Source: Alphaproteobacteria bacterium (GTDB lineage: Bacteria; Pseudomonadota; Alphaproteobacteria; UBA8366; Aestuariispiraceae). Taken from it: a DNA stretch of 64,000 nucleotides. This document shows, in pieces, positions 45,996 to 63,526 of the stretch (the stretch's first letter is position 1; every line of letters starts with the position of its first letter). The stretch is from contig JANSXE010000005.1 of the NCBI GenBank assembly GCA_024743195.1, forward strand, positions 62,001 to 126,000, read 5' to 3'. Under the pieces are notes generated by a model. The model worked only from the letters and a program-made list of their open reading frames with translations, was not told the origin of the DNA and did not search any database. A program made the position numbers and the translations under genes.

Positions 45996-46811
45996 TTACC
46001 GAAGCCGTTCCGTAATCTCCGCCAACGCCGCCCCGACCTCCGCCACCGTATCCACCACATAATGCGCGCCGGCGCGGGCGAGTTTGTCGGCGGCTTTGGC
46101 GCGCAAGGGAGCCTGTTCGGCGGGGGTGAGCGCGGTCCACTCCTCGTAGGACAGCCCCACCTCATTGCCGGAGCAGGAGAGGCCGATCGTCCACATGCCG
46201 GCGGCGAGGCCGGCCTCGATCCCCGGCGCGCTGTCGTCGATATTGACGCAGGCGGCCACGTCGGAGACGCCGAGAGTGAGGGCGCTCTTGAGGCACATGT
46301 CCGGGTTGGGCCGGCCTTGCGCCACGTCGCTGGCGCAGACCAGGCTGTCCGGGACGATCCCCTGTTCGGCGAGCTTGGCGGTGAGCGCCTCCATCACCTC
46401 GCGCGGATAGCCGGTGGTGGTTCCGATCCTGATCCCCTGCGCGCGCAGGCTCTCGAAGCAATCGAGCGCGCCGGGGATGACCGTCGCATGGTTCTGCAGG
46501 CACTCGACCTGCAGCGGCAGGAACTCGGCGTACAGCGCGTCGATGTCCGCCTCCGTCGCGGCCGCGCCGGTCGCCTGCGCCCAGCGCGCGGCGACGCCGG
46601 GCATGGCCAGCATCTGGGCGATGTGGTCGCGCTTGGCGGCGCCCATGGGGCCGCGGGCCTCGTCCACCGTGACCGCGACCTGACGGCGCTTGAACAGCTC
46701 GACGAACGCCATGACCGGCGCGGTCGAGCCGAAATCGACGATGGTGCCCGCGTTGTCGAACAGCACGGCCTGGATCGGCCCGGCGTAGCGGCGGGTGTAG
46801 CGATAGCTCAT
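45996..46811 (-). CDS. phnX: Phosphonoacetaldehyde hydrolase
   Basis: VLFDNAGTIVDFGSTAPVMAFVELFKRRQVAVTVDEARGPMGAAKRDHI; IGTTTGYPREVMEAL; AQGRPNPDMC; adjacent to phnW. Confidence 0.92.
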   Translation of the reverse strand: MSYRYTRRYAGPIQAVLFDNAGTIVDFGSTAPVMAFVELFKRRQVAVTVDEARGPMGAAKRDHIAQMLAMPGVAARWAQATGAAATEADIDALYAEFLPLQVECLQNHATVIPGALDCFESLRAQGIRIGTTTGYPREVMEALTAKLAEQGIVPDSLVCASDVAQGRPNPDMCLKSALTLGVSDVAACVNIDDSAPGIEAGLAAGMWTIGLSCSGNEVGLSYEEWTALTPAEQAPLRAKAADKLARAGAHYVVDTVAEVGAALAEITERLR

Positions 46812-46846
46812 CGGACGCTCCTGGAAAACGAGGTGTTAGGGCGGGA

Positions 46847-48013
46847 TCAGGCGGGCGCGCCGGCGGCGACGCCCATCTCGGCCATCACGGCGTCGACGGC
46901 GGCGAGCGCGCCGGCCATGTCGGCGCGGTCGAGGCGGCCGATGCAGCCCATCCGGAAGCTTTCGGCGACCGTGAGCTTGCCCGGATAGATCAGATAGCCG
47001 CGCGCAGCCAGCCCGTCATAGAAGCGCTGGAAGTCGAAGGCCGGGTCGACCGGCGTGCGAAAGGTGACGATGATCGGGGCCTGCAGCGCGTCCGGCAGCA
47101 GGGTCTGGAAGCCGCGCGCGCGCATGCCCTCCACCAGCACCCGGCAATTCTCGTAATAGCGCGCGCCGCGGCCGGCGACGCCGCCTTCGGCCGCATGCTC
47201 CCGGATCGCCTGATCGAGCGCGGCGATGACGTGGATCGGCGGGGTGAAGCGGTACTGACCCGTCTTCGCAAGCGCCGCCTGCTGGTCCGCCAGATCGAGC
47301 GACAGCGAGGGCGCATGGCCCGCCGCGGCGGCGAGGGCCGCCTTCTCGCACAGCACGAAGCCGAGGCCCGGCACGCCCTCCAGGCACTTGTTCGAGGAGG
47401 CGGCCAGCGCCTCGAACGGCGCGGCGGCGGGCGTGATCGGCAGCGCCCCGAAGGCGCTCATGGAATCGACCAGCAGCTTGCGGCCGGCCGCGGCGACGCG
47501 GGCGGCGATCTCCTCGATCGGGTTCAGGATCCCGCTCGTCGTCTCGCAGTGGACGGCGAGGACGTGGCTGATCGCCGGATCGTCGGCCAGCGCCCGCTCC
47601 AGCGCGGCGAGGTCCGGCGGCCGATCCTCCGGCGTCTCCAGCGCGGCCGACGCGCGGCCCAGCCGGGCGCAGATCGCCAGCGCCCGCTTGCCGTAAGCGC
47701 CGTTCACCAGGACCAAAAGCTTCCCGGACGCCGGGACCAGCGTGGCGATCATCGCCTCCACCGCGAAGGTGCCGCTGCCCTGCATCGGGACCGCGACGTG
47801 GCTGTCGCCCGCCTCCGCCAGATCGGCGATCGCGGCCAGCACCCGGCGGTTCATGGCCAGGAAGCCCTCGTCACGCGAGCCCCAGTCATGCAGCATCGCC
47901 CGCTTCACGGACAGCGAGGTGGTGAGCGGTCCCGGCGTCAGCAGCAACGGATCGCCCGTCTCGCTCGCCGCGACGCTCGGTCGGAGGTCGGCTTCCGCCA
48001 TCATGCGCCTCAT
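46847..48013 (-). CDS. phnW: 2-aminoethylphosphonate--pyruvate transaminase
   Basis: LLLTPGPLTTSLSVKRAMLHDWGSRDEGFLAMNRRVLAAI; MSAFGALPITP; SSNKCLEGVPGLGFVLC. Start may be 48001-48013. Confidence 0.94.
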   Translation of the reverse strand: MRRMMAEADLRPSVAASETGDPLLLTPGPLTTSLSVKRAMLHDWGSRDEGFLAMNRRVLAAIADLAEAGDSHVAVPMQGSGTFAVEAMIATLVPASGKLLVLVNGAYGKRALAICARLGRASAALETPEDRPPDLAALERALADDPAISHVLAVHCETTSGILNPIEEIAARVAAAGRKLLVDSMSAFGALPITPAAAPFEALAASSNKCLEGVPGLGFVLCEKAALAAAAGHAPSLSLDLADQQAALAKTGQYRFTPPIHVIAALDQAIREHAAEGGVAGRGARYYENCRVLVEGMRARGFQTLLPDALQAPIIVTFRTPVDPAFDFQRFYDGLAARGYLIYPGKLTVAESFRMGCIGRLDRADMAGALAAVDAVMAEMGVAAGAPA

Positions 48014-48124
48014 CGCTTGGTCGGGACTGCGCCCGGGGGGATCGACGCCGGGTGTACGCCCGCGCAGACGTCCGCGTCCAATCGATAGGCGGTATAGCCG
48101 AAATAGGTTTTGTCTATATGACAG

Positions 48125-49111
48125 TCAGGGCCGGCCGGCGGATCCGAGAACGGGCGCGCCGGCGGCCTCGTCCCAGCGCCAATCCGCCGCGCCGTCCAGG
48201 AAAAGCCCGCCCCACCAGCGCGCGATCCCGTTCGCGGCCACCCAATCCGCCCCGCCGTCGAGCAGACGCTCCCCGAAAGGCGTGAGGCGGATCGGATCCC
48301 GCCAGGAGGCCGGCGCCGGGGCGATCGCGGGCTCCGCGCCCTGGGCCAGCCCCGCGACGTCCGGCCAGTACATGAGGTCTCCGAGGAACGGCAGCGGGTC
48401 GAGCCGTTCCATCAACGCGCGGAAGCAGGCGGCCGGCGTCGCCGCCCCATACCGCAGCGCCTGGAGCGTCAGGCGCTCGGTGAGCGAGAGCCCGTCGCCG
48501 GCGCCCGGAAGCTCCTGAAGATGCCGGGTCAGGGCGGGTCCGACGCATCGCAAGGCGCCCGAGCGCGTCTCCGAAGCGGCCGCCGCGAGCGCCGGCGGAG
48601 CGGCGTCGCGAAACAGCGCGTAGAGCGCGGCCGCGTCGGCGATCTCCCGACCGGTCACGGGCTCGCCGCCGGCCGCATGCAGGGCCGACAGCTCATCCGG
48701 CGCCAACTGACCCAGACCGATGAACCGGGCGTGGTTCGGGTGACGGTCAACGAGGATGATCCTCGGGTCCGCAGGCTGCGCGTCCAACGCTCTCAGCCGC
48801 TCCAGCAGCCCCAGCAGGCACAACTGGTCATACGGATCGTGCTCGAACCAGAGCAGGACGCGGTCATAGGCGCCGAGCCCTTCAAGGGCCGCGTCAGCCG
48901 CCGTCAGGCGGGCGGCGACGGCGTCTCGATCCTCGTCCCACGCCGACGCGATCCAGCCCGCCCGCTGGGCGATCAGCGCGCGCCGGTCCAGGCCGGCCGG
49001 CGCCGGTCCCCGGCAGAGCGGATCGCTCCATTCGAGGAAATCCCCCGGGACGCCCGCTTCCGCGAGTCCGTCCCGGATATCGGATCCACAGCGAATATGC
49101 AGATCGGTCAT
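48125..49111 (-). CDS. DUF1835 domain protein
   Basis: LHIRCGSDIRDGLAEAGVPGDFLEWSDPLCRGPAP...LWFEHDPYDQLCLLGLLERL. Confidence 0.85.
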   Translation of the reverse strand: MTDLHIRCGSDIRDGLAEAGVPGDFLEWSDPLCRGPAPAGLDRRALIAQRAGWIASAWDEDRDAVAARLTAADAALEGLGAYDRVLLWFEHDPYDQLCLLGLLERLRALDAQPADPRIILVDRHPNHARFIGLGQLAPDELSALHAAGGEPVTGREIADAAALYALFRDAAPPALAAAASETRSGALRCVGPALTRHLQELPGAGDGLSLTERLTLQALRYGAATPAACFRALMERLDPLPFLGDLMYWPDVAGLAQGAEPAIAPAPASWRDPIRLTPFGERLLDGGADWVAANGIARWWGGLFLDGAADWRWDEAAGAPVLGSAGRP

Positions 49112-49323
49112 CGCCGCCGTTCCCGGTTCGATCCCGATGTGAAATGACGCGCACCCCTGGCATTCTGACACATAACGCGGGCTTCGGCGACGCTCCGGGT
49201 TCGTGCGGCCAACCGGAGCCGCGGATCGGGTGACGGCCCTCGATCCGTTGGCGACGGGGGCCTTAGAGCGCTTTCCGACCCGGTCTCGACGGGCGCCGGA
49301 GACGCAGCGGAAGAAGGCCGCCG

Positions 49324-50838
49324 CTACTCGAAGCTGCGTCCTTCACCGCCGTAGAACCAATCGTCGGGGTAGGGATACCACCAGTCCTGCACAACCGCGT
49401 CCGCGTCGATGATGACCATCTTGGACTGACGGAAGGCGTCGAGCCCCTGGCGGCCGAGTTCACGGCCGACGCCGGACATCTTCCAACCGCCGAAGGGCAA
49501 AGCGTCATTGTCGATCAGCGGGTTGTTCACCCAGACCATGCCGGACTGGAAGCGTTCGGCCGCCGCCATCGCCTCGCGCATGTCGCGCGTGAAAAGCGAC
49601 GCGCCCAATCCGAACGGCGTGTCGTTGGCCCGCGCCATCGCCTCATCGAAGGAGGACACCTTGCACACCGCCGCCACCGGCCCGAAGATTTCCTCCTGCA
49701 TGACCGCCATATCGAGCGTCACGTCGGTCAGGATCGTCGGCTCGTAGAACCAGCCCCGATTGCGGTCGGGCGGCGCACCGCCCCCGCAGACGAGACGCGC
49801 GCCGTCGGCGACCGCCGCGTCGACAAGGCGCGCCACCTTGTCCCGGCCGGCCTCGCTGACGAGCGGCCCGATCTCCGAGCGTTCCAGCCCGGGCCCGACG
49901 CGCAACGCGCGCGCTGCGTCGGCGAAGCGCTCGACGAAGGCGTCGTGAACCGCCTCATGCACGAAGAACCGCTCCGCCGAAGTGCAGATCTGACCCGTCA
50001 GATGGAAGGCCGCCGTCACCGACCCGGAGACGGCGACGTCGAGATCCGCATGCTCGCTCACGATCAGGGGATCGCTGCCGCCGGCTTCGATGACGCAAGG
50101 CTTCATCAGGTCGGCGCAGGCGGCGCCGACGGCGCGGCCGGCCGCGACGCTGCCGGTGAAGGCCACGACATGCGTGTCGGGCGAGCGGATCAGCGCCTGG
50201 GCGGTCTCGACCCCGCCCGTCACGCAGCCGACGAGGCCGTCCGGCAGATGGTCGAAATGCTGCATGAAGCGCAGGCTGCACAGCGTCGTCGCCTCGGCCG
50301 GCTTGACCAGGCAGGCGTTGCCCGCGGCCAGCGAGGCCGCGACGGTCCAGCACATCAGCAGGATCGGGAAATTGAACGGCAGGATATGAACGCTCACGCC
50401 ATAGGGTTCGTAGCGCGCGAACTGAAAGGAGCCGGTCTGGGTCGTCCCGGCGATGCGTCCGGCCTCGTCCCGCGCCATTTCGGCGTAGTAGCGGAAGACC
50501 CCGGCGCAATTGGCGAGTTCGCCCACCGCTTCGGGATAGGGCTTGCCCTGTTCGCGCACCATCTGCAGCGCGACGTCGTGGAAGTCGCTCTCCTCGATCC
50601 GGTTGGCGATGCGGTGGAGCGCGCTCGCGCGGCTCTTGGCGTCCAGGCGCGCCCAGTCGGCCTGGGCGCTGTTGGCGAGCGCGATCGCCTCGGCCAGCGT
50701 CCCGGGGTCGCACTCGGCGAGCGCGCCGACCGGCTCCAGGCTCGCCGGATCGAGCCTCTGGCGCGCGGCGGCGTTCGCGAGCGGGCGATAGGCGTTCGCC
50801 AGAAAGCTTTGGGGCTGGAAGGGGTTGAACTGGGCCAT
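49324..50838 (-). CDS. Aldehyde dehydrogenase family protein
   Basis: GGSDPLIV; GQICTSAERFFVHEAV; MQEEIFGPVAAVCKV; unusual C-terminus DWWYPYPDDWFYGGEGRSFE. Confidence 0.93.
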   Translation of the reverse strand: MAQFNPFQPQSFLANAYRPLANAAARQRLDPASLEPVGALAECDPGTLAEAIALANSAQADWARLDAKSRASALHRIANRIEESDFHDVALQMVREQGKPYPEAVGELANCAGVFRYYAEMARDEAGRIAGTTQTGSFQFARYEPYGVSVHILPFNFPILLMCWTVAASLAAGNACLVKPAEATTLCSLRFMQHFDHLPDGLVGCVTGGVETAQALIRSPDTHVVAFTGSVAAGRAVGAACADLMKPCVIEAGGSDPLIVSEHADLDVAVSGSVTAAFHLTGQICTSAERFFVHEAVHDAFVERFADAARALRVGPGLERSEIGPLVSEAGRDKVARLVDAAVADGARLVCGGGAPPDRNRGWFYEPTILTDVTLDMAVMQEEIFGPVAAVCKVSSFDEAMARANDTPFGLGASLFTRDMREAMAAAERFQSGMVWVNNPLIDNDALPFGGWKMSGVGRELGRQGLDAFRQSKMVIIDADAVVQDWWYPYPDDWFYGGEGRSFE

Positions 50839-50843
50839 GGCGG

Positions 50844-51959
50844 CTACTCCTGAACGGCGGGCTCTTGGGTCGGGCCCGGGGACGCGGGCTGGGAAGGGGG
50901 CTGGGAAGGGGGCTGGGAAGGGGGCGGCGCATCGGCTAGAGCGGGGAGGTCCGGCGCATGCGCGGCGATCCAGTCGGAGACGGGCGCCAGGAACCCGTGC
51001 GCTGCAAGCCGACGGCGGAGCAAGCCGACGACCCGCGGGATATGCCGGAGATACGCCGGCTTGCCGTCGCGGCGGGCGAGGCGCGCGAAGATCCCGATCA
51101 CCTTGGCGTGCCGCTGGGCGGCGAGCAACGCGGCCCAGCGCTCGAAGCCTTCGGCCGGCTCCATCGCCGCGCCCATGCCGGCGCGGTACCGCGCGAGAAG
51201 CTCTTGGCGCAGCCCCTCGGAAAGGTCGCGCCGGGCGTCCTCCAGAAGCGAGATCACGTCATAGGCGCGCGGCCCGATCACCGCGTCCTGGAAGTCCAAG
51301 AGGCCGCACGCCCGCACGCCCGGCTCGCCCTCGAGCCGCATCAGATTGTCGACATGGAAGTCGCGCAGCACGAGCGCGTCGGGCGTCGCCGGCGCCCGGT
51401 CGAGCAGGCTGCGCCAGAGCGTGCGCCACTCGGCCGCGGCCGCCGCCCCGCAGGGCCGGTCGAGCAGCACCGGCAGCGCCCAGTCGGCGAGCAGGGCGGC
51501 CTCCTCGACCAACAGGTCGGCGTCGTAGCGCGGGCGGTCGAGCCGCGCGGCTTCTTCGGCCTTGTGCAGACGGACCAGCGCATCGACGGCGAGCGCGTAG
51601 AGACGCCGCTCGGTCTCGGGGTCGGAGTCGGCTTCGGCCCGGGCGAGCAGGCGGGTGTAGGTGGCGTCGCCGAAATCCTGGATCAGCAGGAAGCCCTTCG
51701 CCCGGTCCTCCGCCAGGACGGCGGGCGCGCTCAACCCGGCCGCGCGCAGGGCGCCCGCGACCTGGACATAGGCGGCGAGATCCTCCTCCGGCGGCGCGTC
51801 CATCAGCAGGACGGACGGCGCCCCGGGGCGGCGCAGCCGGAAATAGCGGCGCGGAGAGGCGTCGCTCGCGAGCGCCTCCCAGTCCGCGTCCGCAAGCCCG
51901 GCGCACGCGGCGAAAGCCCGCCGCGCCTCGGCGCGCTCGGCCTCCGCGTCCGCACTCAT
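50844..51959 (-). CDS. Aminoglycoside-phosphotransferase-fold kinase, AmgK-like (cell-wall sugar kinase family)
   Basis: DASPRRYFRLRRPGAPSVLLMDAPPEEDLAAYVQVAGALRAAGLSAPAVLAEDRAKGFLLIQDFGDATYTRLL; LRDFHVDNLMRL; GLLDFQDAVIGPRAYDVISLLEDARRD. Confidence 0.78.
   Translation of the reverse strand: MSADAEAERAEARRAFAACAGLADADWEALASDASPRRYFRLRRPGAPSVLLMDAPPEEDLAAYVQVAGALRAAGLSAPAVLAEDRAKGFLLIQDFGDATYTRLLARAEADSDPETERRLYALAVDALVRLHKAEEAARLDRPRYDADLLVEEAALLADWALPVLLDRPCGAAAAAEWRTLWRSLLDRAPATPDALVLRDFHVDNLMRLEGEPGVRACGLLDFQDAVIGPRAYDVISLLEDARRDLSEGLRQELLARYRAGMGAAMEPAEGFERWAALLAAQRHAKVIGIFARLARRDGKPAYLRHIPRVVGLLRRRLAAHGFLAPVSDWIAAHAPDLPALADAPPPSQPPSQPPSQPASPGPTQEPAVQE
50888..50925. repeat. 12-bp in-frame tandem repeat (gctgggaagggg, 3 copies)
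   Basis: Encodes PPSQPPSQPPSQ at the C-terminus of the AmgK-like protein. Confidence 0.9.
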
Positions 51960-52324
51960 CGGATCATGTAGACCTTTCGCACGGTCTCATGCACCCGGCA
52001 GGTCCCTTTCCAGCCCTTCGGGAAAAAGGCGGCCGTGTCGGGCTCGATTTCGATCACCTCGCCGGACTCGTGGGTGTAGGTCGCCCGGCCGGACAGAAAA
52101 TGGCAGAACTCGTGCTCCGTCACCTCGCAGGCCCAATAGCCCGGGGTGCAAACCCAGACGCCGGATTCGGGCGAGCCGCCGGGCCCCTTGTAAAGCAGCA
52201 CGCCGGAGACGCGCGATTCCCCCTCGATCATCGTCGGGATGACGCCCCAATCGACCAGGTCCGCGTCGGGGATGTCGGCCGGATCGTAGAGAACCGGCGT
52301 CGCGTCAAGCTGTGCGTCGCTCAT
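51956..52324 (-). CDS. Cupin domain protein 1 (EutQ/DUF861-like)
   Basis: ESGVWVCTPGYWACEVTEHEFCHFLSGRATYTHESGEVIEIEPDTAAFFPKGWKGTCRVHETVRKVYMIR. Confidence 0.85.
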   Translation of the reverse strand: MSDAQLDATPVLYDPADIPDADLVDWGVIPTMIEGESRVSGVLLYKGPGGSPESGVWVCTPGYWACEVTEHEFCHFLSGRATYTHESGEVIEIEPDTAAFFPKGWKGTCRVHETVRKVYMIR

Positions 52325-52354
52325 TGTTGGAACCTCATGATGTCGCGCCGCGCC

Positions 52355-52723
52355 TCAGCGCAGCATGTAGACGCTGCGCAGCGTCTCGAAGACTTCAACG
52401 TCGCCGGACCAATCTTCCCGGAAATGCACGACCATCCCGGGGCGGATTTCGATCACCTCGCCGTCGTCGCGCCGGTAGACCGCCCGGCCGGCGAGGAAAT
52501 GGCACATCTCGTCCCGGGGCAGGGTCAGGCGCCAACTGCCGGGCGTGCAGATCCAAAGACCGGCCTCCGGCGTTCCGTCCTCGCCCTTCCAAAGCAGCCG
52601 GCCGCTGTTGCCGGATCGCCCGTCGATCGGCTCCAGGTGGCCGCCCCAATCGCTCATCGGGCCCGCCCATTCGCGGGCCGGATGAAGATGCGGCGCGCTG
52701 CTGTCGAACTTTGCCTCGCTCAC
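52355..52723 (-). CDS. Cupin domain protein 2 (EutQ/DUF861-like)
   Basis: EAGLWICTPGSWRLTLPRDEMCHFLAGRAVYRRDDGEVIEIRPGMVVHFREDWSGDVEVFETLRSVYMLR. Confidence 0.85.
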   Translation of the reverse strand: MSEAKFDSSAPHLHPAREWAGPMSDWGGHLEPIDGRSGNSGRLLWKGEDGTPEAGLWICTPGSWRLTLPRDEMCHFLAGRAVYRRDDGEVIEIRPGMVVHFREDWSGDVEVFETLRSVYMLR

Positions 52724-52741
52724 AATGCTCCTCAGCCTCCC

Positions 52742-53149
52742 TCAGACCAGCATGTAAAGGTTCCGGAGGGTCTCCGTCACCTCGCACTCGCCGCGCCAGC
52801 CCTTCCGGAAATGCACGACGGCGCCGGGTCGAACCTCAATCGTCTCGCCGCCGTCCGCGCGGCGATAGACGGCGCGGCCGGCGACGAAGTGGCACAGCTC
52901 GTCGGCCGGCATCTCCAGGGTCCAGCGGCCCGGCGTGCAAATCCACAGGCCGGATTCCGGCCGGCCTTCCGGCCCCTTGAAGAGCAGGCGGCCGGAGCTT
53001 GCGCTTTCCGCGGCGTTCGCGGCCGGCAGCGCACCCGGCTGCCGGCCCCAGTCGCGCAGATCGGCCTCCCACCCCGTCGCCGGGGCGAGGGACGGCGCGC
53101 TCGCCGCCAGGCGGGCCGCCGCCGACGCCCGCGCGCCGTCGCCCGCCAT
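52742..53149 (-). CDS. Cupin domain protein 3 (EutQ/DUF861-like)
   Basis: ESGLWICTPGRWTLEMPADELCHFVAGRAVYRRADGGETIEVRPGAVVHFRKGWRGECEVTETLRNLYMLV. Correct start at 53149 lies inside the 52742..54160 shadow ORF. Confidence 0.85.
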   Translation of the reverse strand: MAGDGARASAAARLAASAPSLAPATGWEADLRDWGRQPGALPAANAAESASSGRLLFKGPEGRPESGLWICTPGRWTLEMPADELCHFVAGRAVYRRADGGETIEVRPGAVVHFRKGWRGECEVTETLRNLYMLV

Positions 53150-53151
53150 GC

Positions 53152-54450
53152 TCAGACCGTCTCCGCCAGGCCGACCAGCAGCTTGGCGGCCTGGTTGGGG
53201 CTGCCGTGCGACTGCATGTGCGCCGAGGTGGCGTCGAGCTTCTGACGCATGGTCTGGTCGGCCGTCAGGCGCTCCAGATTCGCGCGCAGTTCGTCGGGCG
53301 TCCAGGCCTTGCGATGCATGTAAAGCCCGTGGCCGGTTTCCTGCACGCGAGTCGCGTTGTCGTGGCCGTCCCAGACATAGGGCATGACGATGGCGGGCTT
53401 TCCGAAATAGAGGCACTCGGTGAAGCTGTTGTTGCCGCCGTGATGGATCACCGCGTCCGCCTGGGCGATGACGGAGGGCTGCGGGAACCAGCCGTCGATA
53501 TGGACATTGCCGGGCAGCGTCCCGTAGGCGTCCTTGTAGTCGCCCACATTGACCAGCGCGCGCACCTGCATCCCGCCGAGCACGTCGATGATCCGTTTCA
53601 ACAACTCCGTGTCGCCGGAGCCCAGGCTGCCGAAGCTGACATAGACCAGCGGCGCGTCGTTCTTCTCTGCGAAGCGCGGGATCTCGTAGGGCTTCTCCTC
53701 GCGCACGCAGCCCTCGAGATAGCGGAAGCGCTTCGGGTCCAACGGGTTGCGGCGTCGGAACTTCACCGGCTCCGGATAGAGCAGCAGATTCAGATGCGGC
53801 GAGGTCTCGAAGAACTCGCCCAGCGGATAGGGCTCCTCGCCGCACTCCTTCAGGAAGGCGTTGAAGCGGGCGTGGCAGTCCGCCACCACCTCCTTGAACT
53901 TGGCGTCGAACTTGTGGAAGCAGTCGCGATCGTTCTCGCCGCAGCCGGACAGGTGCGGGGGGATGTCGGGATCGGGAATCTCGTTCTCCGAACAAGAGAT
54001 AACCCGCACCCAGGCCTTGCCGTTCTCCTGCGCGTAGCGCTTGATCGCCGGGAACAGGATGACGTTGTCGACGCACACCACGTCCGGCTTCACCCGGTCG
54101 AGCACGCCGGGCAGCTCTTTCTCCGCCCAGACCGAGGTTTCGACGATCGCCTCCCAGCACTCCTTGACGTAGTTGTCGAGCTGTTCGTAGGGCGTCAGGT
54201 CGAAGTTCGGGATGTGGCCGTTGATGAAGTCGGACCAGTACTTCGCCATTTCCTCCGGCGGCATCGGCTCCGACATGTTCACCTCATGCTCCTCGAAGCC
54301 GTAGCCCTTGTAGAGGCCGGCCATGCCGGGGTCGGTCAGGAACACCGCCTTGTGTCCCTGCTTCTCCACCGCCTGGGCGATGGCCACCGAATTGAGGGCG
54401 GGGCCGAAGGCGGCCTCGGGGAAGAATGCGATCACCTTCTTGTCGCTCAT
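53152..54450 (-). CDS. GT1-family (UGT/macrolide glycosyltransferase-like) glycosyltransferase
   Basis: PLVYVSFGSLGSGDTELLKRIID; IDGWFPQPSVIAQADAVIHHGGNNSFTECLYFGKPAIVMPYVWDGHDNATRVQETGHG. Confidence 0.9.
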   Translation of the reverse strand: MSDKKVIAFFPEAAFGPALNSVAIAQAVEKQGHKAVFLTDPGMAGLYKGYGFEEHEVNMSEPMPPEEMAKYWSDFINGHIPNFDLTPYEQLDNYVKECWEAIVETSVWAEKELPGVLDRVKPDVVCVDNVILFPAIKRYAQENGKAWVRVISCSENEIPDPDIPPHLSGCGENDRDCFHKFDAKFKEVVADCHARFNAFLKECGEEPYPLGEFFETSPHLNLLLYPEPVKFRRRNPLDPKRFRYLEGCVREEKPYEIPRFAEKNDAPLVYVSFGSLGSGDTELLKRIIDVLGGMQVRALVNVGDYKDAYGTLPGNVHIDGWFPQPSVIAQADAVIHHGGNNSFTECLYFGKPAIVMPYVWDGHDNATRVQETGHGLYMHRKAWTPDELRANLERLTADQTMRQKLDATSAHMQSHGSPNQAAKLLVGLAETV

Positions 54451-54483
54451 CTTTTTGCCTCCTGTTCCATTGGATTGGCGTTG

Positions 54484-55572
54484 TCATCCGTCCGCCAGAA
54501 GACGGGTGTGCTCTCGCCGCCAGCAGCACCAGACCTCCCGGCCTGGGGACCAGTCTCCGGCCTCTGCGGCGTCGGCCGTCAAACGCACGATCACCGGATC
54601 CTCCGCCGCCTCGACAGACAGGCGCACATTCATGTCCTGGCCGTGATAGGCGATGTCGAGGATCCGTCCGGGAAGCGCGTTCTCCGCATCGTCTCCGTCG
54701 GCCGGCGGCGCATCGACGAGGCGCAGGCGCTCCGGCCTGACCGCCGCGATCGGCCGGGCGGCGGGCGCGAGGTCGCCGTCGCCGCGGATCAGGCGGCCCG
54801 AGACGCGCAGTCCGCCGTCCGCCGCCTCGCCGCGAAAGACGTTCATCTTCCCGATGAAGCCCGCGACGAACCGGTTTGCGGGCCTTTCATAGAGCGTGCG
54901 CGGCGCGCCCACCTGCTGCACGACGCCGTCGCGCAGCACCGCCATGCGATCGGCCATGACGAGCGCCTCCTCCTGATCGTGGGTCACAACCACGAAGGTG
55001 ACGCCGACCTCCTCCTGCATGCGCTTCAGTTCGAGCTGCATCTGCTCGCGCAGCTTCTTGTCGAGGGCGGCCAGCGGTTCGTCGAGCAGCAGCACGCGCG
55101 GCCGCTTGACCAGAGCGCGCGCGAGCGCCACGCGCTGGCGTTGCCCGCCGGAGAGTTGATCGGGCTTGCGCGACGCGAAATCGGAGAGGTGAGTCATCTC
55201 CAGGATTTCGCCCACGCGGCGTTGGGTCTCGCGGCGGTCGACCCCTTCGACCTCCAGCCCGTAGGCCACGTTGGCGGCCACGCTCATATGCGGGAACAGC
55301 GCGTAGGATTGAAACATCATGTTGATCGGCCGCTTGTTGGGCCGAAGCGGGGTCATGTCGCGCCCGTCGAGCAGCACGCGCCCCTCGTCGGGCCGCACGA
55401 AGCCGGCGACGGCGCGCAACAGGGTCGTCTTGCCGCAGCCGGACGGGCCCAGCAGCGCGAAGAACTCTCCCTCCGCCAGATCCAGCGAGACGGCGTCGAC
55501 GGCCTTCAGGGCGCCGTAACGCTTGGTTACCCGCTCGATGGCGATGACGGTTCGCTCAGCCTTGTCCTTCAT
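54484..55572 (-). CDS. ABC transporter ATP-binding protein (PotA-like)
   Basis: LLGPSGCGKTTLLRAVAGFVRPDEGRVLLDGRDMTPLRPNKRPINMMFQSYALFPHMSVAANVAYGLEVEG; TOBE-type C-terminus. Confidence 0.95.
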   Translation of the reverse strand: MKDKAERTVIAIERVTKRYGALKAVDAVSLDLAEGEFFALLGPSGCGKTTLLRAVAGFVRPDEGRVLLDGRDMTPLRPNKRPINMMFQSYALFPHMSVAANVAYGLEVEGVDRRETQRRVGEILEMTHLSDFASRKPDQLSGGQRQRVALARALVKRPRVLLLDEPLAALDKKLREQMQLELKRMQEEVGVTFVVVTHDQEEALVMADRMAVLRDGVVQQVGAPRTLYERPANRFVAGFIGKMNVFRGEAADGGLRVSGRLIRGDGDLAPAARPIAAVRPERLRLVDAPPADGDDAENALPGRILDIAYHGQDMNVRLSVEAAEDPVIVRLTADAAEAGDWSPGREVWCCWRREHTRLLADG

Positions 55573-56372
55573 CCGGTGATGGACCCTTTGTTGATGCGTT
55601 GCGAGAGAAGGACCAGCGCGAAGCTGACCGCCATGACGATCGTCGCCATGGCGTTGATTTCCGGCGTCACGCCGAACCGGATCATCGAGTAGATCTGCAT
55701 CGGCAGCGTGGTCGATCCCTGACCCGGGCCTGCGGTGAAGAAAGCGATGATGAATTCATCCACCGACAGGGTGAAGGAGAGCATCGCGCCCGCCAGGACC
55801 CCGGGCAGGATCGCCGGCAGGATGACCCGGCGGAAGGTCGTCGCTTCATTGGCGCCGAGATCCACCGAGGCCTCGAACACCGACCAGTCGAACCCGCGCA
55901 GCCGCGTGCGGACGACCGCACAGACGAAGGCGATGTTGAACACGACATGGCTCAGGATGATCGAATGCAGGCCCAGCGTGAATTCCAGTAAGGTGAAGAA
56001 GGACAACAGCGCGATCGCCAACACGATGTCAGGAATGATCATCGGCGCGAACAGCACAGCCTCCAGGGCCGGTCCGCGCCGGCGGTACTCGACGCCGATG
56101 GCGAGCAACGCGCCGAGCGCCGTGGCGAGCAGCGTCGACGTCACCGCGACGATCAGCGTGTTTCGGGCGGCGGCCAGGACGGCCTCGTTCTCCAGCAGCA
56201 CGCCGTACCATTTGACGGAAAACCCGGTCCAGGCCGTGGGCAGTCCCGCCTGATTGAAGCTGAGCGCCATCAGCACCAGGATGGGCCCGTACAGGAAGAG
56301 CAGCACGAGCCCGAGATGACCGGACAGCCAGACCCGCGAGGGGGCGGCGCGCGCGTTTGCGCCGTCAAGCAT
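55569..56372 (-). CDS. ABC transporter permease (PotC-like)
   Basis: PILVLMALSFNQAGLPTAWTGFSVKWYGVLLENEAVLAAARNTLIVAVTST; SVDLGANEATTFRRVILPAILPGVLAGAML. Confidence 0.94.
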   Translation of the reverse strand: MLDGANARAAPSRVWLSGHLGLVLLFLYGPILVLMALSFNQAGLPTAWTGFSVKWYGVLLENEAVLAAARNTLIVAVTSTLLATALGALLAIGVEYRRRGPALEAVLFAPMIIPDIVLAIALLSFFTLLEFTLGLHSIILSHVVFNIAFVCAVVRTRLRGFDWSVFEASVDLGANEATTFRRVILPAILPGVLAGAMLSFTLSVDEFIIAFFTAGPGQGSTTLPMQIYSMIRFGVTPEINAMATIVMAVSFALVLLSQRINKGSITG

Positions 56373-57228
56373 GGGCGCCCTCCCGATCGCCCTGCATGCG
56401 GCGGACCACCATCGCCTGCGTGAAGAGCAGGATCATCATCACGCCGATGAGCATCATGCTGAGGGTGGCGCCGAAGGGCCAATCCCGCGCCGTCAGGAAC
56501 TGATCGTAGATGATGTTGCCGACCATCTGGATGCGCCCGCCTCCGAGCAGATCCGGCGTGATGAAGTTGCCGATGGACAGCACGAAGACGAAGACCGCGC
56601 CGGCGGCGACGCCGGGGATCGTCAGCGGCAGCGTCACCCGAAAGAAGGTGCGCACCGAGGACGCTCCGAGATCTTCCGACGCCTCCAGCGTCTCGGGATT
56701 GAGCCGCGAGATGGACGCGAAGATCGCCAGGATCACAAAGGGCAAGTAGTTGTAGACGAGCCCGGTGACGACCGCGAACTCGTTATAGAGCAATGAGAGC
56801 GGCTCGTTGATCAATCCCAGGGCCGTCAGCGCCTGATTGATCAAGCCCTCCCGATTCAGCAGCACGATCCAGGCGTAGGTGCGGATCAGGTAGTTGCTCC
56901 AGAAGGGCAACATCACGAGGACCAGGAACACGGTCTGTCTCCGCGGGGCGGCGCGCGCGATCGCGTAGGCCGCGGGATAGCCGATCAGCAGCGCGACGAG
57001 CGTCGCAAGGCCCGCGATTTTGGCGGACTTCAGAAAGATCGACAGATAGAGCGGATCGAAGGCGCGGCCGAAATTGTCGAAGCCGAAGACATAGTCGACG
57101 CCGCCGTAAACGCCCCGTTCGAAGAAGGCGAAGAAGAAGACGATTGCGCACGGCGCGACCAGCAGCAGCGCCAGCCAGGTGAGCCCGGGGCCGAGTAGAA
57201 TCCAGTCTCTGAGGAGCGAGCGCGGCAT
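56365..57228 (-). CDS. ABC transporter permease (PotB-like)
   Basis: LPFWSNYLIRTYAWIVLLNREGLINQALTALGLINEPLSLLYNEFAVVTGLVYNYLPFVILAIFASISRLNPETLEASEDLGAS. Confidence 0.94.
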   Translation of the reverse strand: MPRSLLRDWILLGPGLTWLALLLVAPCAIVFFFAFFERGVYGGVDYVFGFDNFGRAFDPLYLSIFLKSAKIAGLATLVALLIGYPAAYAIARAAPRRQTVFLVLVMLPFWSNYLIRTYAWIVLLNREGLINQALTALGLINEPLSLLYNEFAVVTGLVYNYLPFVILAIFASISRLNPETLEASEDLGASSVRTFFRVTLPLTIPGVAAGAVFVFVLSIGNFITPDLLGGGRIQMVGNIIYDQFLTARDWPFGATLSMMLIGVMMILLFTQAMVVRRMQGDREGAHA

Positions 57229-57327
57229 GACGGACGCCTATGGCCGATGGAGGGCGACGATCGGGCGGGATGGCGGGCGGCGCCGCGGCCAAGCCGAGCG
57301 CGCCGCCCGTTCCGCGAACGCCGCGGC

Positions 57328-58374
57328 CTATTCTGCCGCGAGAACTTCCGTGACCGTGCGCGAGAAGGCTCTCTGCCCGTCGCCGAGGTCGCGGAGCTGC
57401 TCCTGGGCGAGCAGCGTTTCGGGATCCATGCCGAGATTCGGGAACTGCTCGATCAGCGCGGGATCGAGCGCCGCCATGGCCGCCTGATTAGGCGTCTTGT
57501 AGAGAATGTTCGCCGGCACCCAGGCCCCGTTGTCCGCCTCCAGGACGAAGTTCAGGAAGGCGTGGGCGGCATCCTTGTTCTCCGACGCCTCGGTGATCAC
57601 CATCGCGTCGACCCACAGGTCGCTGCCCTCTTCCGGAATGACGTATTTGATCGCGTCGTTCTCGGCGACGCCATAGTTGCACCAGCCGTCCCAGGCCTGA
57701 ACCAGCCACGCCTCGCCGGAGACCAGCTTGGAATAGAAGGTCGTGTCGTCATAGGCGAGCAGCGACTGCTTCGCCTCAACGAGCAGATCCTTGGCGGCGT
57801 CAAGCGCCCCCTGGTCCGTCGTGTTGACGCTCTGCTCCTGCGCCAGGAACGCCGCCGCCATCAGCCAACGGTCGGTCGAGAGCATCGTCACCTTGCCCTT
57901 CAGGTCGTCGGACGGGCGCAGCAGGTCCATCCAACTGTCGGGGGTCTGCGAAACCAGATCGGAGCGGTAGCACAGCCCGGTCGTGCCCCAGGCGTAGGGA
58001 ACGGACACCTGATTGTCCGGGTCGTATTCGAGCTGCGCGGCCTCCGGATAGAGGTTTTTCAGATTGGGCAGCTTGTCGTGGTCGAGCTCGGCGGCGAGGC
58101 CCAGCGCTTTCAGCGCTTCGACGAACGGGGAGGATACGAACACGACGTCGTATCCCTTGCCCCGGCCGGCTACGACCTTGCCCATGATCTCCTCGTTGGT
58201 GGCGTGCACGGCGAGTTCGGCCTCGATGCCGGTGGCTTCCGTGAAGCGCTCGAGCATGTCCGCCGGCATGTAGCCGTCCCAGTTGGAGATCACGATCTTG
58301 TCTTGGGCGAGGGCCGGCCCGCTTATCGCGGCCGCACAGAACGCCGCCGCCGCCAGCTTGGTCAATTTCCGCAT
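57328..58374 (-). CDS. Extracellular solute-binding protein (PotD-like)
   Basis: Signal peptide MRKLTKLAAAAFCAAAISGPALAQ; DKIVISNWDGYMPADMLERFTEATGIEAEL. Confidence 0.92.
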   Translation of the reverse strand: MRKLTKLAAAAFCAAAISGPALAQDKIVISNWDGYMPADMLERFTEATGIEAELAVHATNEEIMGKVVAGRGKGYDVVFVSSPFVEALKALGLAAELDHDKLPNLKNLYPEAAQLEYDPDNQVSVPYAWGTTGLCYRSDLVSQTPDSWMDLLRPSDDLKGKVTMLSTDRWLMAAAFLAQEQSVNTTDQGALDAAKDLLVEAKQSLLAYDDTTFYSKLVSGEAWLVQAWDGWCNYGVAENDAIKYVIPEEGSDLWVDAMVITEASENKDAAHAFLNFVLEADNGAWVPANILYKTPNQAAMAALDPALIEQFPNLGMDPETLLAQEQLRDLGDGQRAFSRTVTEVLAAE

Positions 58375-58503
58375 GGTCAGTCTCCCGTTTCAGTTTCCCT
58401 GCACGGCAGCGCCGCGACGTCCTTCACGGAGCGCCGGACCCTGCAAACGTCCCTCTCGCGAGGCGCGGCCGTTCGACCGGTCGCTTGTCAGTTGCGAAAA
58501 CTC

Positions 58504-58527
58504 TGTACTATTTTGATAAAAAGTACA
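58504..58527. promoter_or_regulatory. Candidate operator TGTACT-N12-AGTACA in an AT-rich patch
   Basis: tgtactattttgataaaaagtaca, between divergent solute-binding and FAD-oxidoreductase genes. Confidence 0.6.
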
Positions 58528-58586
58528 ATCTGATTTCGGGTAGCGGGTCGTCGATCGCCGACAACGCCTGATTCGGGAGCTGTTTC

Positions 58587-59936
58587 ATGCGCCGCCTTTA
58601 CGCTGCGGAGGCCTACGATGCGACGCGATCTCCGGACAGCCACTGGCTGGCGACGGCGCCGCCGCTCGCGGCCGAATGTCGGCCGCTTGAGGATCCTGTG
58701 CGCTGCGACGTCGCCGTGATCGGCGGCGGCTTCACGGGCTTGTCGGCCGCGCATCGGCTGGCGCAAACCCATCGGCGTGCGGTTCGGCTTTTCGAGGCGG
58801 GACCGATCGCGTGGGGCGCGTCCGGCCGCAATGGCGGCTTCTGTTGTCTCGGCGGCTCGAAGCTCGGTCATGAGGCGATCGCGCGCCGCGTCGGGGGCGA
58901 GGAGGCCCGGCGCTTCGCCGACGCGCAACGCGCCGCGATCGATCATGTGGCGGCCTTTCTCGATCGCGTCGGCGTCGACGCCGACAGGCACAGCCGCGGC
59001 GAACTCGTGCTCGCGCACAAGCCGTCCCGGCTGTCGGCCCTGCGCGCCGAGGCGGCGCATCTGGAGTCACAGTTCGGCGTCGAGGCCGAGGTGATGGACC
59101 GAGCGGCCCTAGAGGCCGTCGGAGTCTCGGGACCGGAGTTCCACGCCGGACTTCACATTCCCTTCGGCTTCGCGCTCAACCCCCTCACCTACGCACGCGC
59201 CCTGGCGGCGGCCTGCGCGCAGGCCGGGGTCGTCCTGCACCCGCACAGCCCGGTGACGGACTGGCGGATGGACGGCGGGCGGCATCGGTTGCGCGTGAAC
59301 GGTCTGCCTGTGGTCGCGGACCGCGTGGTCCTGGCCGCCAACGGCTACGGCTCGGAAGACATGCCCGAATGGATGGCCGGACGCACGCTGCCCGCCCTGT
59401 CGCGCATCCTGGTGACCCGCCCGTTGACGGCTGCGGAGCGCGCGGCGCAAGGCTGGACGAGCGCGCTTATGGCGCAGGATTCACGGCGGCTGCTGCACTA
59501 TTTCCGCCTGCTGCCCGACGGGCGTTTCCTGTTCGGCGGCCGCGGCGGGCTGGCCGCCGGCGAGGCCGCAGCCGGCCGCTCGCACAGCCGGTTAAGGGCC
59601 GACTTCGACCGGATGTTCCCCGGCTGGGCGCATGTCGAAACGGAACGGAGCTGGTCGGGTTTCGTCTGTCTGAGCGCCTCGTTGGCGCCGTTCATCGGGG
59701 CGCTGCCGGATCGACCCGGCGCGTGGACGGCGCTTGCCTATCACGGCAACGGCGTCGCGATGGGCAGCTGGTCGGGGGCCCGCGTCGCCGATCTCGCCGC
59801 CGGCGTCGAGGGGGCCGAAGCGGCGATTCCGCAGCTTATGCGCGGACCGTTGAAGCGATTTCCCGCCTCGCGTATGCGTCTGGCCGCCTTGCGCGCCGCC
59901 TATGTCGCGTATGGGGTCGCGGACCGGTTCCTGTAA
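58587..59936 (+). CDS. FAD-dependent oxidoreductase (DAO / gamma-glutamylputrescine oxidase-like)
   Basis: CDVAVIGGGFTGLSAAHRLAQTHRRAVRLFEAGPIAWGASGRNGGFCC; ALAYHGNGVAMGSWSGARVADL. Confidence 0.9.
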   Translation: MRRLYAAEAYDATRSPDSHWLATAPPLAAECRPLEDPVRCDVAVIGGGFTGLSAAHRLAQTHRRAVRLFEAGPIAWGASGRNGGFCCLGGSKLGHEAIARRVGGEEARRFADAQRAAIDHVAAFLDRVGVDADRHSRGELVLAHKPSRLSALRAEAAHLESQFGVEAEVMDRAALEAVGVSGPEFHAGLHIPFGFALNPLTYARALAAACAQAGVVLHPHSPVTDWRMDGGRHRLRVNGLPVVADRVVLAANGYGSEDMPEWMAGRTLPALSRILVTRPLTAAERAAQGWTSALMAQDSRRLLHYFRLLPDGRFLFGGRGGLAAGEAAAGRSHSRLRADFDRMFPGWAHVETERSWSGFVCLSASLAPFIGALPDRPGAWTALAYHGNGVAMGSWSGARVADLAAGVEGAEAAIPQLMRGPLKRFPASRMRLAALRAAYVAYGVADRFL

Positions 59937-59950
59937 CGGGTCGGGCGTCG

Positions 59951-60871
59951 CTAGACGCGGGTCAGACGGCGGTGCGCGAGGGCGCGGACCTTGTTGAAAT
60001 CCGGGCGGATGCGCCGCGACGTCGCGATATGGTCGGTGAGACGGGCGGCGGCGCGCTCATAGTCTCCGGCCTCGATGGCGTCCAGTATCTCAAGATGCTC
60101 GCGGCAGGAATCGGCCAGACGGACCCGATCGCCGTAGTTCTCATATTCGCTCAGGCGGCGCAGACGGGTTTGCTGCTGGATGGCCTGCCGCAGGAAGCGG
60201 TTCCCGCAGCACTCCGCGACGGTCTCGTGAAAGTCGGCGTCGACGGCGAACAACTCCGCGACCGGCGCGGTGTCGACGGCGCCCGCCAGCATCTCCTCGT
60301 GCCGGGCGCGAAGGCGTGCGAAGGCGCGGGGATCGGGCTGAAAGCCCGGGGCCGCGACCGCCGCCGGCTCTATCAGCAGCCGGAACTCGTAACTCTCGTG
60401 ATAGGCGTTCGCGTCATTGAGCACCGGGCCGAAACGATAGAAGCGGCCCGGACCGCGCTCGACCACGCCTTCCTCGGCCATGCGGGCCAGGACGCGGTTG
60501 GCGGCGGCGCGATCCACCTCATACCGGCGCATAACGTCGGCGACGGCGATCTGCTCCGGCGCAAGGTTCGCGAATCGAGCGCGCACCAGATCGCGATAGA
60601 TGCGCTCTTCGCCGCTTTCGGGAATGGCGCGGTCGCGAAAGGCCTCGCCGTCCGCATCCAGCGCCAGGAAGTACCCGACATTGGGTTCCGAGCGCACGAC
60701 GCCGCGCGTCTCAAGCACCGACAACGCCGCGCGGACCGGGGAGCGGGAGACCCCGAGCAATTCGGACAGCCGGTTTTCCGTCAGCTTGGCCCCCCGCTTC
60801 AATCCCTCGCGTTCGACCTGCGCCATGATCCGGCGGGCGAGATCGAGGGTGCGTGCTTTCGGGACGGACAT
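59951..60871 (-). CDS. GntR/FadR-type regulator with FCD domain and two winged-helix segments
   Basis: GAKLTENRLSELLGVSRSPVRAALSVLETRGVVRSEPNVGYFLA; second segment IAVADVMRRYEVDRAAANRVLARMAEEGVVERGPGRFYRF; FCD-like C-terminus. Start moved to 60871. Confidence 0.88.
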   Translation of the reverse strand: MSVPKARTLDLARRIMAQVEREGLKRGAKLTENRLSELLGVSRSPVRAALSVLETRGVVRSEPNVGYFLALDADGEAFRDRAIPESGEERIYRDLVRARFANLAPEQIAVADVMRRYEVDRAAANRVLARMAEEGVVERGPGRFYRFGPVLNDANAYHESYEFRLLIEPAAVAAPGFQPDPRAFARLRARHEEMLAGAVDTAPVAELFAVDADFHETVAECCGNRFLRQAIQQQTRLRRLSEYENYGDRVRLADSCREHLEILDAIEAGDYERAAARLTDHIATSRRIRPDFNKVRALAHRRLTRV

Positions 60872-61866: not shown

Positions 61867-63417
61867 CTAGAGGCGTAGGACCTCGATCTTGCCGACGGTG
61901 ATCGACATCTCCGGCGGATCGGCTTCCGGCTGCACCGGCAGCGGCAGGAGTTGCACCGTCAGGTCGTTCGGGTCGAGCCGCCCCGCCTCGGCGAGATGGC
62001 GCAGCGCGTCCGTCGCGTCGACCGTGAAGGCCTGCATGGCCGCATGACTGCCTTCGACGGGCGGCATGAAGTAGCTGAAGGAGCCGGCGTAGCCCGGAAC
62101 GCCGTAGCCGTCCGACGGCGTGACGCCGGGCGTGTTGACGTAGACGTTGACCACCGCCTGGGTGGCGGCGCCGGTGACGGTGATCTCGCTCAGGCGCAAC
62201 AGCGTCCGGCTCGGCTCCAACGCCACCCGGCGCTGGTCGGCCGACAGCGTCTTGTTCTCGGACGGGAAGAAGGCCCGGGTTCCGAACAGCCCCTCGGCCA
62301 GCCCCGTCGCGGCGACGGCGATCGACGCCGGCCGGCCGATGCTGGCGGTCGGGCCGCCGGGGCCGCTGGCCAGCAGGACCGCCGGCGCCGCGGGATCGAC
62401 CGGCGCCTCGGCCAGGCTCATCACACCCTTCTCGGACGGCGCGGCGGCGACGGCGGGCGCGACCAGCGTCTCGTAGGTGAAGCCCATCGCCCGGAAGTCG
62501 ACCGCCGCGGCGGCGGTCGCATCCACCGACCGGCCGTCGGCGTTGACGAATTGGCCGTTATAGACCTGCGGCTGGCTCGGCATGGTGTTGCCGACGGTCT
62601 GCCACTCCGCCCACAGGCGATCGACATTGCAGTGGTGCAGCCAGAAGATCGGGTCGAGCGGCGACATGCCGTTGCTCATGTGCCCGTTCGAACCGCCGGT
62701 CAGGACATGGCCGGTGTTGTGCGGGCCGGTTTCGACCGCGTGCCAGAAATCGTTGAAGGGGCCGAGCTTCAGGATCTGCGCGATGTTCGCGGCCGTGAAG
62801 TTGCCGCCGGTGTCGCGATCCTGCAGCCCGACCGTGGGCGTCAGCGCCCGGGTCCCGACGGTCCGAACCTCGACCGGGCTCCAATTGTTCGACTGGGCGT
62901 TGGACGGGTCCTTCCAGTAGGTGACGTTCAGATAGTCGTTGCTGAAGAAGGGCGCCGGCAGCCGGCCCCGGATTTCCGTCCAGTCCCAATAGGCCAGCGC
63001 GAAGTCCGGCTTGCCGATCAGCTTGCCGCAGATCTCCTCGTAAAAGGTGATGTAGTTGCGATGCCAGGCGAAGAAGTCGTCCAGCCCATGCGGACAATGA
63101 CCGAGATGGATCAGCGACTGGTTGCGCCAAGTCCGCTGGTCGGTCGGGTCGCTGGCCTGCAGATCGTGCATGGCCTTCACGGCCTCGCCGTAGTCGGTGA
63201 AGAAGCTGTCGGTCGACGCCATGGTCGACGCATTGCGCCGCACCCGGAGCGTCCCGCCCTGGGCGCGGACGATCGCCGGCGCCGACAACGCCCCCGCCGT
63301 CGCGACGGCGACGGCCGCGGCCGCCCCGCCCTTCAGAACCTGTCGGCGCGAAGGACCGCCGGTCCCGCCGCTGCGCCGCATGCTCGGCTTGGCGCCAGCC
63401 TGGATTTTCCCCACCAT
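61867..63417 (-). CDS. Tat-exported tyrosinase / polyphenol oxidase-like copper protein
   Basis: Tat motif SRRQVLKGGAAAAVAVATAGALSAPAIVRAQ; CuA HLGHCPHGLDDFFAWHRNYITFYEE; CuB GPHNTGHVLTGGSNGHMSNGMSPLDPIFWLHHCNVDRLW. Confidence 0.92.
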   Translation of the reverse strand: MVGKIQAGAKPSMRRSGGTGGPSRRQVLKGGAAAAVAVATAGALSAPAIVRAQGGTLRVRRNASTMASTDSFFTDYGEAVKAMHDLQASDPTDQRTWRNQSLIHLGHCPHGLDDFFAWHRNYITFYEEICGKLIGKPDFALAYWDWTEIRGRLPAPFFSNDYLNVTYWKDPSNAQSNNWSPVEVRTVGTRALTPTVGLQDRDTGGNFTAANIAQILKLGPFNDFWHAVETGPHNTGHVLTGGSNGHMSNGMSPLDPIFWLHHCNVDRLWAEWQTVGNTMPSQPQVYNGQFVNADGRSVDATAAAAVDFRAMGFTYETLVAPAVAAAPSEKGVMSLAEAPVDPAAPAVLLASGPGGPTASIGRPASIAVAATGLAEGLFGTRAFFPSENKTLSADQRRVALEPSRTLLRLSEITVTGAATQAVVNVYVNTPGVTPSDGYGVPGYAGSFSYFMPPVEGSHAAMQAFTVDATDALRHLAEAGRLDPNDLTVQLLPLPVQPEADPPEMSITVGKIEVLRL

Positions 63418-63526
63418 GATCGCGTCTCCCTGTTTGCCGCGCATGATTGCGCGCTAAACGATATTTTTTTGGATCATACTCGTTAAAGAAGCATCTGTGA
63501 AGCTTTTGCACCGGGGACGCCGCCAC

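Follow-up and report, generated by a model that had tools for sequence, protein, structure and literature searches.

A conserved gene unit joining a Pot-type importer, a GT1-family glycosyltransferase and cupins, and its possible role in a sugar-conjugating route of amine catabolism

A 2022 review distinguishes five bacterial polyamine routes (gamma-glutamylation, aminotransferase, direct oxidation, spermidine dehydrogenase, and acetylation), none of which involves a sugar, and glycosyltransferases are unmentioned in its account of bacterial polyamine and ethanolamine metabolism (PMC9397018). The locus described here, at 49324-58374, belongs to a 64,000-nucleotide stretch of DNA (the window) from an alphaproteobacterium of the Aestuariispiraceae (assembly GCA_024743195.1, contig JANSXE010000005.1, positions 62,001 to 126,000). 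It encodes a Pot-type importer, a GT1-family glycosyltransferase (GT), three cupins, a sugar-kinase-like protein resembling AmgK, and an aldehyde dehydrogenase (ALDH). A preliminary description of this DNA had put forward the combination of GT1, cupins, and AmgK-like kinase as a candidate undescribed pathway, and a search of open-access papers yielded no account of it.

With the gamma-glutamylation (Puu) pathway, the locus shares Pot-type import, an FAD amine oxidase, and an ALDH, and a protecting conjugate would play an equal part in both. Unlike Puu, however, the operon has a GT1, cupins, and sugar-activating enzymes, and neither ligase nor gamma-glutamyl hydrolase. A second point of comparison is anomeric sugar salvage by AmgK and MurU, in which AmgK phosphorylates N-acetylmuramic acid and N-acetylglucosamine (GlcNAc) at the anomeric carbon (PMC5371407). 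Here too the locus has an APH-fold sugar kinase, followed in some operon loci by a GlmU-like nucleotidyltransferase, but the operon kinase is not found beside tsaE or murU and the operon uridylyltransferase is of the GlmU type.

We tentatively read the locus, with somewhat less than even confidence, as a GntR-controlled unit for the uptake and catabolism of one specific organic amine, which would be conjugated to a sugar and oxidised, with recycling of the sugar to UDP-sugar. According to this model, PotDBCA would bring in the amine, and GT1 would use a UDP-sugar, of which UDP-GlcNAc and UDP-glucose are the likeliest, to glycosylate either the amine or an intermediate formed early on. The sugar would act as a protecting group, like gamma-glutamate in Puu or acetyl in the acetylation route, and the FAD oxidase and the ALDH would oxidise the conjugate to an aldehyde and then to an acid. 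The sugar could be freed spontaneously, if the bond is that of a glycosylamine, or with the help of a cupin. After phosphorylation at C1 by the AmgK-like kinase, it would be turned back into UDP-sugar by a GlmU-type uridylyltransferase, which some genomes encode in the operon and for which the window genome presumably relies on its housekeeping GlmU. Protein families and gene context give good support to the import of an amine, its oxidation, and the oxidation of an aldehyde, while the acceptor (amine or intermediate), the order of steps, the identity of the sugar, its release, and the substrate are given here as we infer them.

The unit and its recurrence in other genomes

The unit consists of ten consecutive minus-strand open reading frames (ORFs), all at coordinates that agree with the preliminary description. 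In the direction of transcription, these encode PotD, PotB, PotC, PotA, GT1, three Cupin_3 proteins, the APH-fold kinase, and the ALDH, separated by 99, -8, -4, 33, 2, 18, 30, -4, and 5 bp from PotD onward; the nearest downstream gene lies 212 bp beyond the unit. A simple custom ORF caller, also used in the analysis, picks starts by codon usage and may misplace them. Three of the four junctions listed earlier are overlaps (56365/56372, 8 bp; 55569/55572, 4 bp; 51956/51959, 4 bp), whereas the fourth, 53149/53152, is a 2 bp gap. Pfam assigns the PotD solute-binding protein, PotA with its TOBE domain, GT1 (EryCIII-like_C/UDPGT), three Cupin_3 proteins, APH, and Aldedh. The solute-binding protein, two permeases, and ATPase, all of Pot type, give the composition of a PotABCD importer, and Cupin_3 relatives within the source genome are confined to this ten-gene cluster.

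When GTDB species genomes were scanned with the window GT, 141 close relatives were obtained, and 80 of these were retrieved for context. A Pot transporter is encoded upstream of the GT in 38 of the 55 relatives that have 4.5 kb of upstream sequence. Among the 36 such Pot loci with at least 4 kb downstream, a cupin is present in all (36/36), an ALDH in 33, at least two cupins in 25, and the kinase in 21. The gene order is repeated in about 40 loci from many genera, at roughly 40-80% protein identity; this recurrence goes far beyond chance, which supports a conserved unit rather than an accident of annotation. The gene unit, its conservation, and its protein families are shown at the level of sequence.

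Carriers include Pseudomonas, Halomonas, Aidingimonas, Marinomonas, Amorphus, Oricola, Ancylobacter, Pelagibius, many roseobacters, and other Alpha- and Gammaproteobacteria, and the unit is also found on plasmids of Shinella and Ruegeria. Within the class to which the window belongs, the GT was detected in 11 of 289 sampled species, and members of the window's own order have GT relatives of at least 74% identity or none. Alpha- and Gammaproteobacteria are intermixed in the GT tree, which suggests horizontal transfer of the GT. Conservation outside close relatives, named in the preliminary description as a check on its proposal, was found in multiple genera and, in reduced form, in haloarchaea. 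Relatives from Streptomyces (35%) gave no useful gene context.

Two genes beyond the ten belong to the unit. The FAD amine oxidase named in the reasoning of the preliminary description is a divergent neighbour (58587-59936, plus strand) and not one of the ten genes; because DAO relatives with 41-45% identity to it sit inside the operon, directly after the ALDH, in a related genus (three genomes, L131-L133), it is assigned to the unit. The other is the GntR regulator, a 68% relative of which is encoded immediately upstream of PotD in Pelagibius (L021).

Substrate uptake and the relation to the Puu pathway

In an alignment of 41 operon PotDs to Escherichia coli PotD, residues W34, Y37, W229, W255, D257, and Y293 are kept and form an amine clamp (W32, Y35, W228, W254, D256, and Y292 in the operon protein). 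Other positions are substituted (E171->W, Y85->P in 40/41, D168->T, Q327->L/M, and further T35->D, N230->D, S232->W), and nearly all of these are invariant among the 41 proteins; the roles of the corresponding E. coli residues in polyamine binding are taken here from general knowledge. The operon PotD thus has the fold and the amine clamp of the polyamine-binding proteins PotD and PotF, but its distal polyamine-binding residues are exchanged and the binding residues are not retained at both ends. The earlier characterization of the solute as polyamine-like therefore stands for the clamp and not for the distal residues. The invariance of the pocket argues for one substrate, and ordinary putrescine or spermidine is made less likely by the missing distal residues. 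In Ruegeria pomeroyi, the proven polyamine transporter is potFGHI (SPO3466-3469).

The DAO (58587-59936) and the ALDH (49324-50838) are present by Pfam, but neither attains its Puu equivalog cut-off, the ALDH scoring 246 bits against 850 for PuuC. No glutamine-synthetase-type ORF (PuuA) occurs among the genes of 45996-60871 and no PuuD in the unit, Peptidase_C26 matches being located on other contigs of the genome. The absence of Puu ligase and hydrolase in the preliminary description holds within the unit and not for the genome as a whole, which has, on other contigs, PuuA-like glutamine-synthetase-family genes with a DAO at locus L121 and PuuD-like hydrolases at L115/L122 and L116. All of the PuuA-like ligases fall below the curated PuuA cut-off; the homologues that, according to the same description, would complete a normal Puu pathway and speak against its proposal were found only in part. 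Judged from these scores, the source genome probably has a complete Puu route, although proof is lacking. A role of the cluster as a replacement for Puu was rejected, and it is regarded as an additional pathway, since Puu-like genes exist elsewhere in the genome.

It could be argued that the locus is an ordinary polyamine operon with GT, cupins, and kinase as accessories in loose linkage, given that a PotABCD-type importer, a DAO, and an ALDH are the usual polyamine set. This is very unlikely: after the transporter, no members are more constant than the GT and cupin, a GT-cupin-ALDH core is retained in archaea with a different transporter, the distal polyamine residues of PotD are exchanged in 41/41 orthologues, and the genome has its separate Puu-like genes.

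The glycosyltransferase, the kinase, and the fate of the sugar

The structure model of GT1 (mean pLDDT 94.8) best matches the spider-mite enzyme UGT203A2 (TM 0.89, 26% identity; phmmer E 5e-47). In common with the GT1/UGT family (MGT, OleD, UGT203A2), the window GT has the GT-B fold and keeps the donor-site HHGG...E (H336 H337 G338 G339, E345) and D361. It differs in having Pro17-Ala18 (Ala17-Ala18 in a paralogue described below) in place of the catalytic His of GHxN, and DG where the donor motif is usually DQ, a change that could give space for a 2-acetamido group. Among 103 family members, a His at positions 8-31 is missing in 102, and none (0/103) has one at the motif position. Asp128, which we take from the alignment and from general knowledge of GT1 enzymes to have paired with the lost His, is invariant across the 103 sequences, as is a new Glu12. 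These two belong to a set of acidic and Trp residues (E12, D128, E155, E157, D160, W72, W99, and W147), all invariant, that would fit a cationic acceptor, and the missing His would fit an acceptor for which a His base is unnecessary. Spider-mite UGTs, rather than the macrolide GTs of bacteria, are the closest solved structures to the window GT (compared with PDB 7lvy), and the mite UGT genes may have come from a donor close to this bacterial family.

A second GT paralogue, 44-51% identical to GT1 and likewise devoid of the catalytic His, is encoded divergently beside GntR at L093:3637-4908, L100:4031-5314, and 29 other loci; in 29 of 34 Pot loci such a paralogue (about 45-50% identity) and GntR are both divergent. 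It was not found in the window genome. A role in antibiotic resistance, as the names of the GT and APH families might imply, was rejected in view of the lack of an efflux system and the GntR-importer-ALDH context.

Two features of the unit, the lack of a glycosidase and the unusual, His-less enzyme, would also be compatible with a GT that works in reverse and moves sugar from an imported glycosylated amine onto UDP, in an operon for glycoside breakdown. This has very little probability: in that case a kinase and a uridylyltransferase for the formation of sugar-1-phosphate and UDP-sugar would be superfluous, and the PotD pocket appears to offer no hint of a sugar site.

The window kinase scores 204 and 192 bits against the NCBIfam AmgK equivalog cut-offs of 500 and 550, below both. 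In a tree, the 16 main housekeeping AmgKs form one clade (100/100 support) from which it is excluded, and the operon kinases do not form a single clade. Because it lies outside the housekeeping clade and the genome keeps its own AmgK and MurU, in a separate TsaE-AmgK-MurU set at L120, the window kinase has another job, probably that of a dedicated paralogue.

A stand-alone GlmU-type uridylyltransferase (NCBIfam GlmU E 6e-82, with the model's match covering the N half) is encoded in nine Pot loci, and the genes that come next often include a DAO and another ALDH. It accompanies the kinase in 9 of 23 Pot loci and is absent from the 17 that lack a kinase (Fisher p 0.005, which is optimistic because related loci are not independent). 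On plasmids of Natrialba and Natronorubrum, genes for a glucokinase-like ROK kinase and a GlmM-like mutase come after the GT-cupin-ALDH core, and aminotransferases, FAD oxidases, and transporters of Pot type are encoded near this haloarchaeal core. A Desulfobacterales contig has the GT and kinase, then an aldehyde ferredoxin oxidoreductase (AFOR) where the ALDH is expected. These haloarchaeal and Desulfobacterales genes are read as probable substitutions, by unrelated enzymes, for the sugar-activation and aldehyde-oxidation steps; such replacements and the kinase-uridylyltransferase coupling are evident at the same level as the gene unit itself.

A sugar-conjugated intermediate with recycling would be the simplest account of a UDP-sugar enzyme, a sugar kinase, and a uridylyltransferase that travel together. 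The suggestion in the preliminary description that a sugar conjugate takes the place of the gamma-glutamyl group gains from the uridylyltransferase that follows the kinase and from the haloarchaeal kinase-mutase pair; it fails insofar as the cluster does not replace Puu in this genome. In its widest form, the proposal is that a His-less GT1 conjugates an imported amine with GlcNAc or glucose, that the product is oxidised, and that a dedicated kinase and uridylyltransferase recycle the sugar, making up a widespread sixth amine route whose logic haloarchaea have assembled separately. We put this forward as a possibility, with confidence well short of even.

The preliminary description had offered the alternative that the imported solute is an amino sugar or aminoglycan-like molecule, which kinase and uridylyltransferase would activate and GTs would build into a glycoconjugate. 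An AmgK-like kinase with a GlmU-type enzyme is indeed the classical sugar-salvage pair, and an aldose-epimerase-like gene is present in Marinomonas (L100). However, the transporter is of PotD type with the amine clamp, the FAD oxidase and ALDH would be left with no role, and many loci do without kinase and uridylyltransferase but not without transporter, cupin, and ALDH. This alternative is improbable, and re-activation of the conjugating sugar was judged the likelier function of the kinase.

Several observations weigh against a sugar-conjugating route. The release of the sugar is unexplained because no glycosidase is encoded in the unit; the window has no stand-alone uridylyltransferase, only a full-length GlmU-like gene having been found; the kinase is absent from 15 of the 36 Pot loci; and the missing His could equally signal a different reaction. 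In addition, about half of the GT relatives are outside Pot loci, several of them beside Liv-type transporters with GcvT-like proteins or beside genes for old yellow enzyme (OYE) and electron-transfer flavoprotein (ETF), so the GT may serve a chemistry wider than that of one amine. In seven loci (L038, L043, L047, L050, L055, L060, and L051), a divergent GcvT-like protein is encoded upstream of the GT, often with cupins and a Liv-type ATP-binding cassette importer downstream. At L134:327-9579, GT, cupin, GcvT-like protein, and ALDH adjoin an OYE-family flavoenzyme together with an Fe-S/ETF-beta-like fusion protein, which is another amine-oxidation-like context, and at L053 the GT adjoins PuuD and a glutamine-synthetase-like gene.

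Such contexts bear on a further hypothesis, in which GT, cupins, and ALDH form a detoxification module that traps a reactive aldehyde or cyclic imine arising from amine oxidation or demethylation. It would account for the GT-cupin pair in several different amine pathways, next to relatives of GcvT-like demethylases, OYE/ETF genes, or the Puu-like genes of L053, for an ALDH or AFOR in most full contexts, and for GT-cupin-ALDH as the core retained in archaea. Aldehyde trapping by this core is kept under consideration because the GT also occurs outside Pot loci, but we consider it unlikely, though it deserves some weight: the invariant PotD pocket and strict Pot-GT adjacency (38/55 loci) link the GT to one imported solute, and the sugar-recycling enzymes point to stoichiometric flux and not to occasional use.

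Feature positions, neighbouring genes, and significance

The features of the unit are listed in Table 1. The candidate operator overlaps a promoter-like site at 58485-58514. As a conserved GntR operator it was rejected, a GTAC pair being present upstream of PotD in just 2 of 40 other loci.

Table 1. Genes and candidate regulatory site of the unit, in window coordinates.
Feature	Coordinates	Strand	Evidence
PotD-type periplasmic amine-binding protein, 348 aa	57328..58374	-	Pfam SBP_bac_8; PotD/Lmo0810 relatives E to 3e-43
PotB-type permease	56365..57228	-	ORF; orthologue at same position in ~40 loci
PotC-type permease	55569..56372	-	8 bp overlap with PotB
PotA-type ABC ATPase with TOBE domain	54484..55572	-	Pfam ABC_tran, TOBE_2
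GT1-family glycosyltransferase, 432 aa	53152..54450	-	Pfam, PDB matches, conservation, structure model
Cupin A (Cupin_3/DUF861 type)	52742..53149	-	2 bp after GT1; Pfam
Cupin B (Cupin_3)	52355..52723	-	Pfam
Cupin C (Cupin_3)	51956..52324	-	Pfam; best conserved among the three cupins
AmgK-like sugar kinase, APH fold	50844..51959	-	Paralogue of the genome's own TsaE-AmgK-MurU kinase
ALDH, BADH/aminoaldehyde type	49324..50838	-	Pfam Aldedh; catalytic Cys and Glu motifs present
FAD-dependent amine oxidase, DAO family	58587..59936	+	Pfam DAO; divergent from PotD
GntR/FCD-family regulator	59951..60871	-	Pfam FCD, GntR
Candidate operator TGTACT(12)AGTACA, PotD/DAO intergenic region	58504..58527	.	Sole match of this form in window

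Downstream of the unit, the minus strand at 45996-48013 encodes a 2-aminoethylphosphonate degradation pair, the phosphonoacetaldehyde hydrolase PhnX and the 2-aminoethylphosphonate transaminase PhnW, both of which exceed curated cut-offs; a PehA-like phosphonate/sulfate ester hydrolase (about 43741-45234, plus strand) accompanies them. PhnW and PhnX were rejected as members of the unit, with no relatives of either in the other loci and a gap of more than 200 bp. On the other side, a predicted tyrosinase-like copper protein with a putative twin-arginine-type signal is encoded at 61867-63444 (minus strand). Among the GT relatives elsewhere, three marine metagenome-assembled genomes (L026, L032, and L033) have the GT immediately downstream of a PilY1 beta-propeller protein, and on a plasmid of Pseudomonas frederiksbergensis, near a type VI secretion locus, a GT relative is divided over two annotated ORFs (L130:9025-9660).

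The unit is common to many soil and marine bacteria, among them Pseudomonas, Halomonas, and the roseobacters. If the sugar does serve as a protecting group, this would be a new conjugation chemistry in central nitrogen metabolism. It would also give a function to a large family of proteins mis-annotated as 'macrolide glycosyltransferases' and 'aminoglycoside phosphotransferases', and would point to an abundant amine that is taken up via a protein with an invariant pocket.

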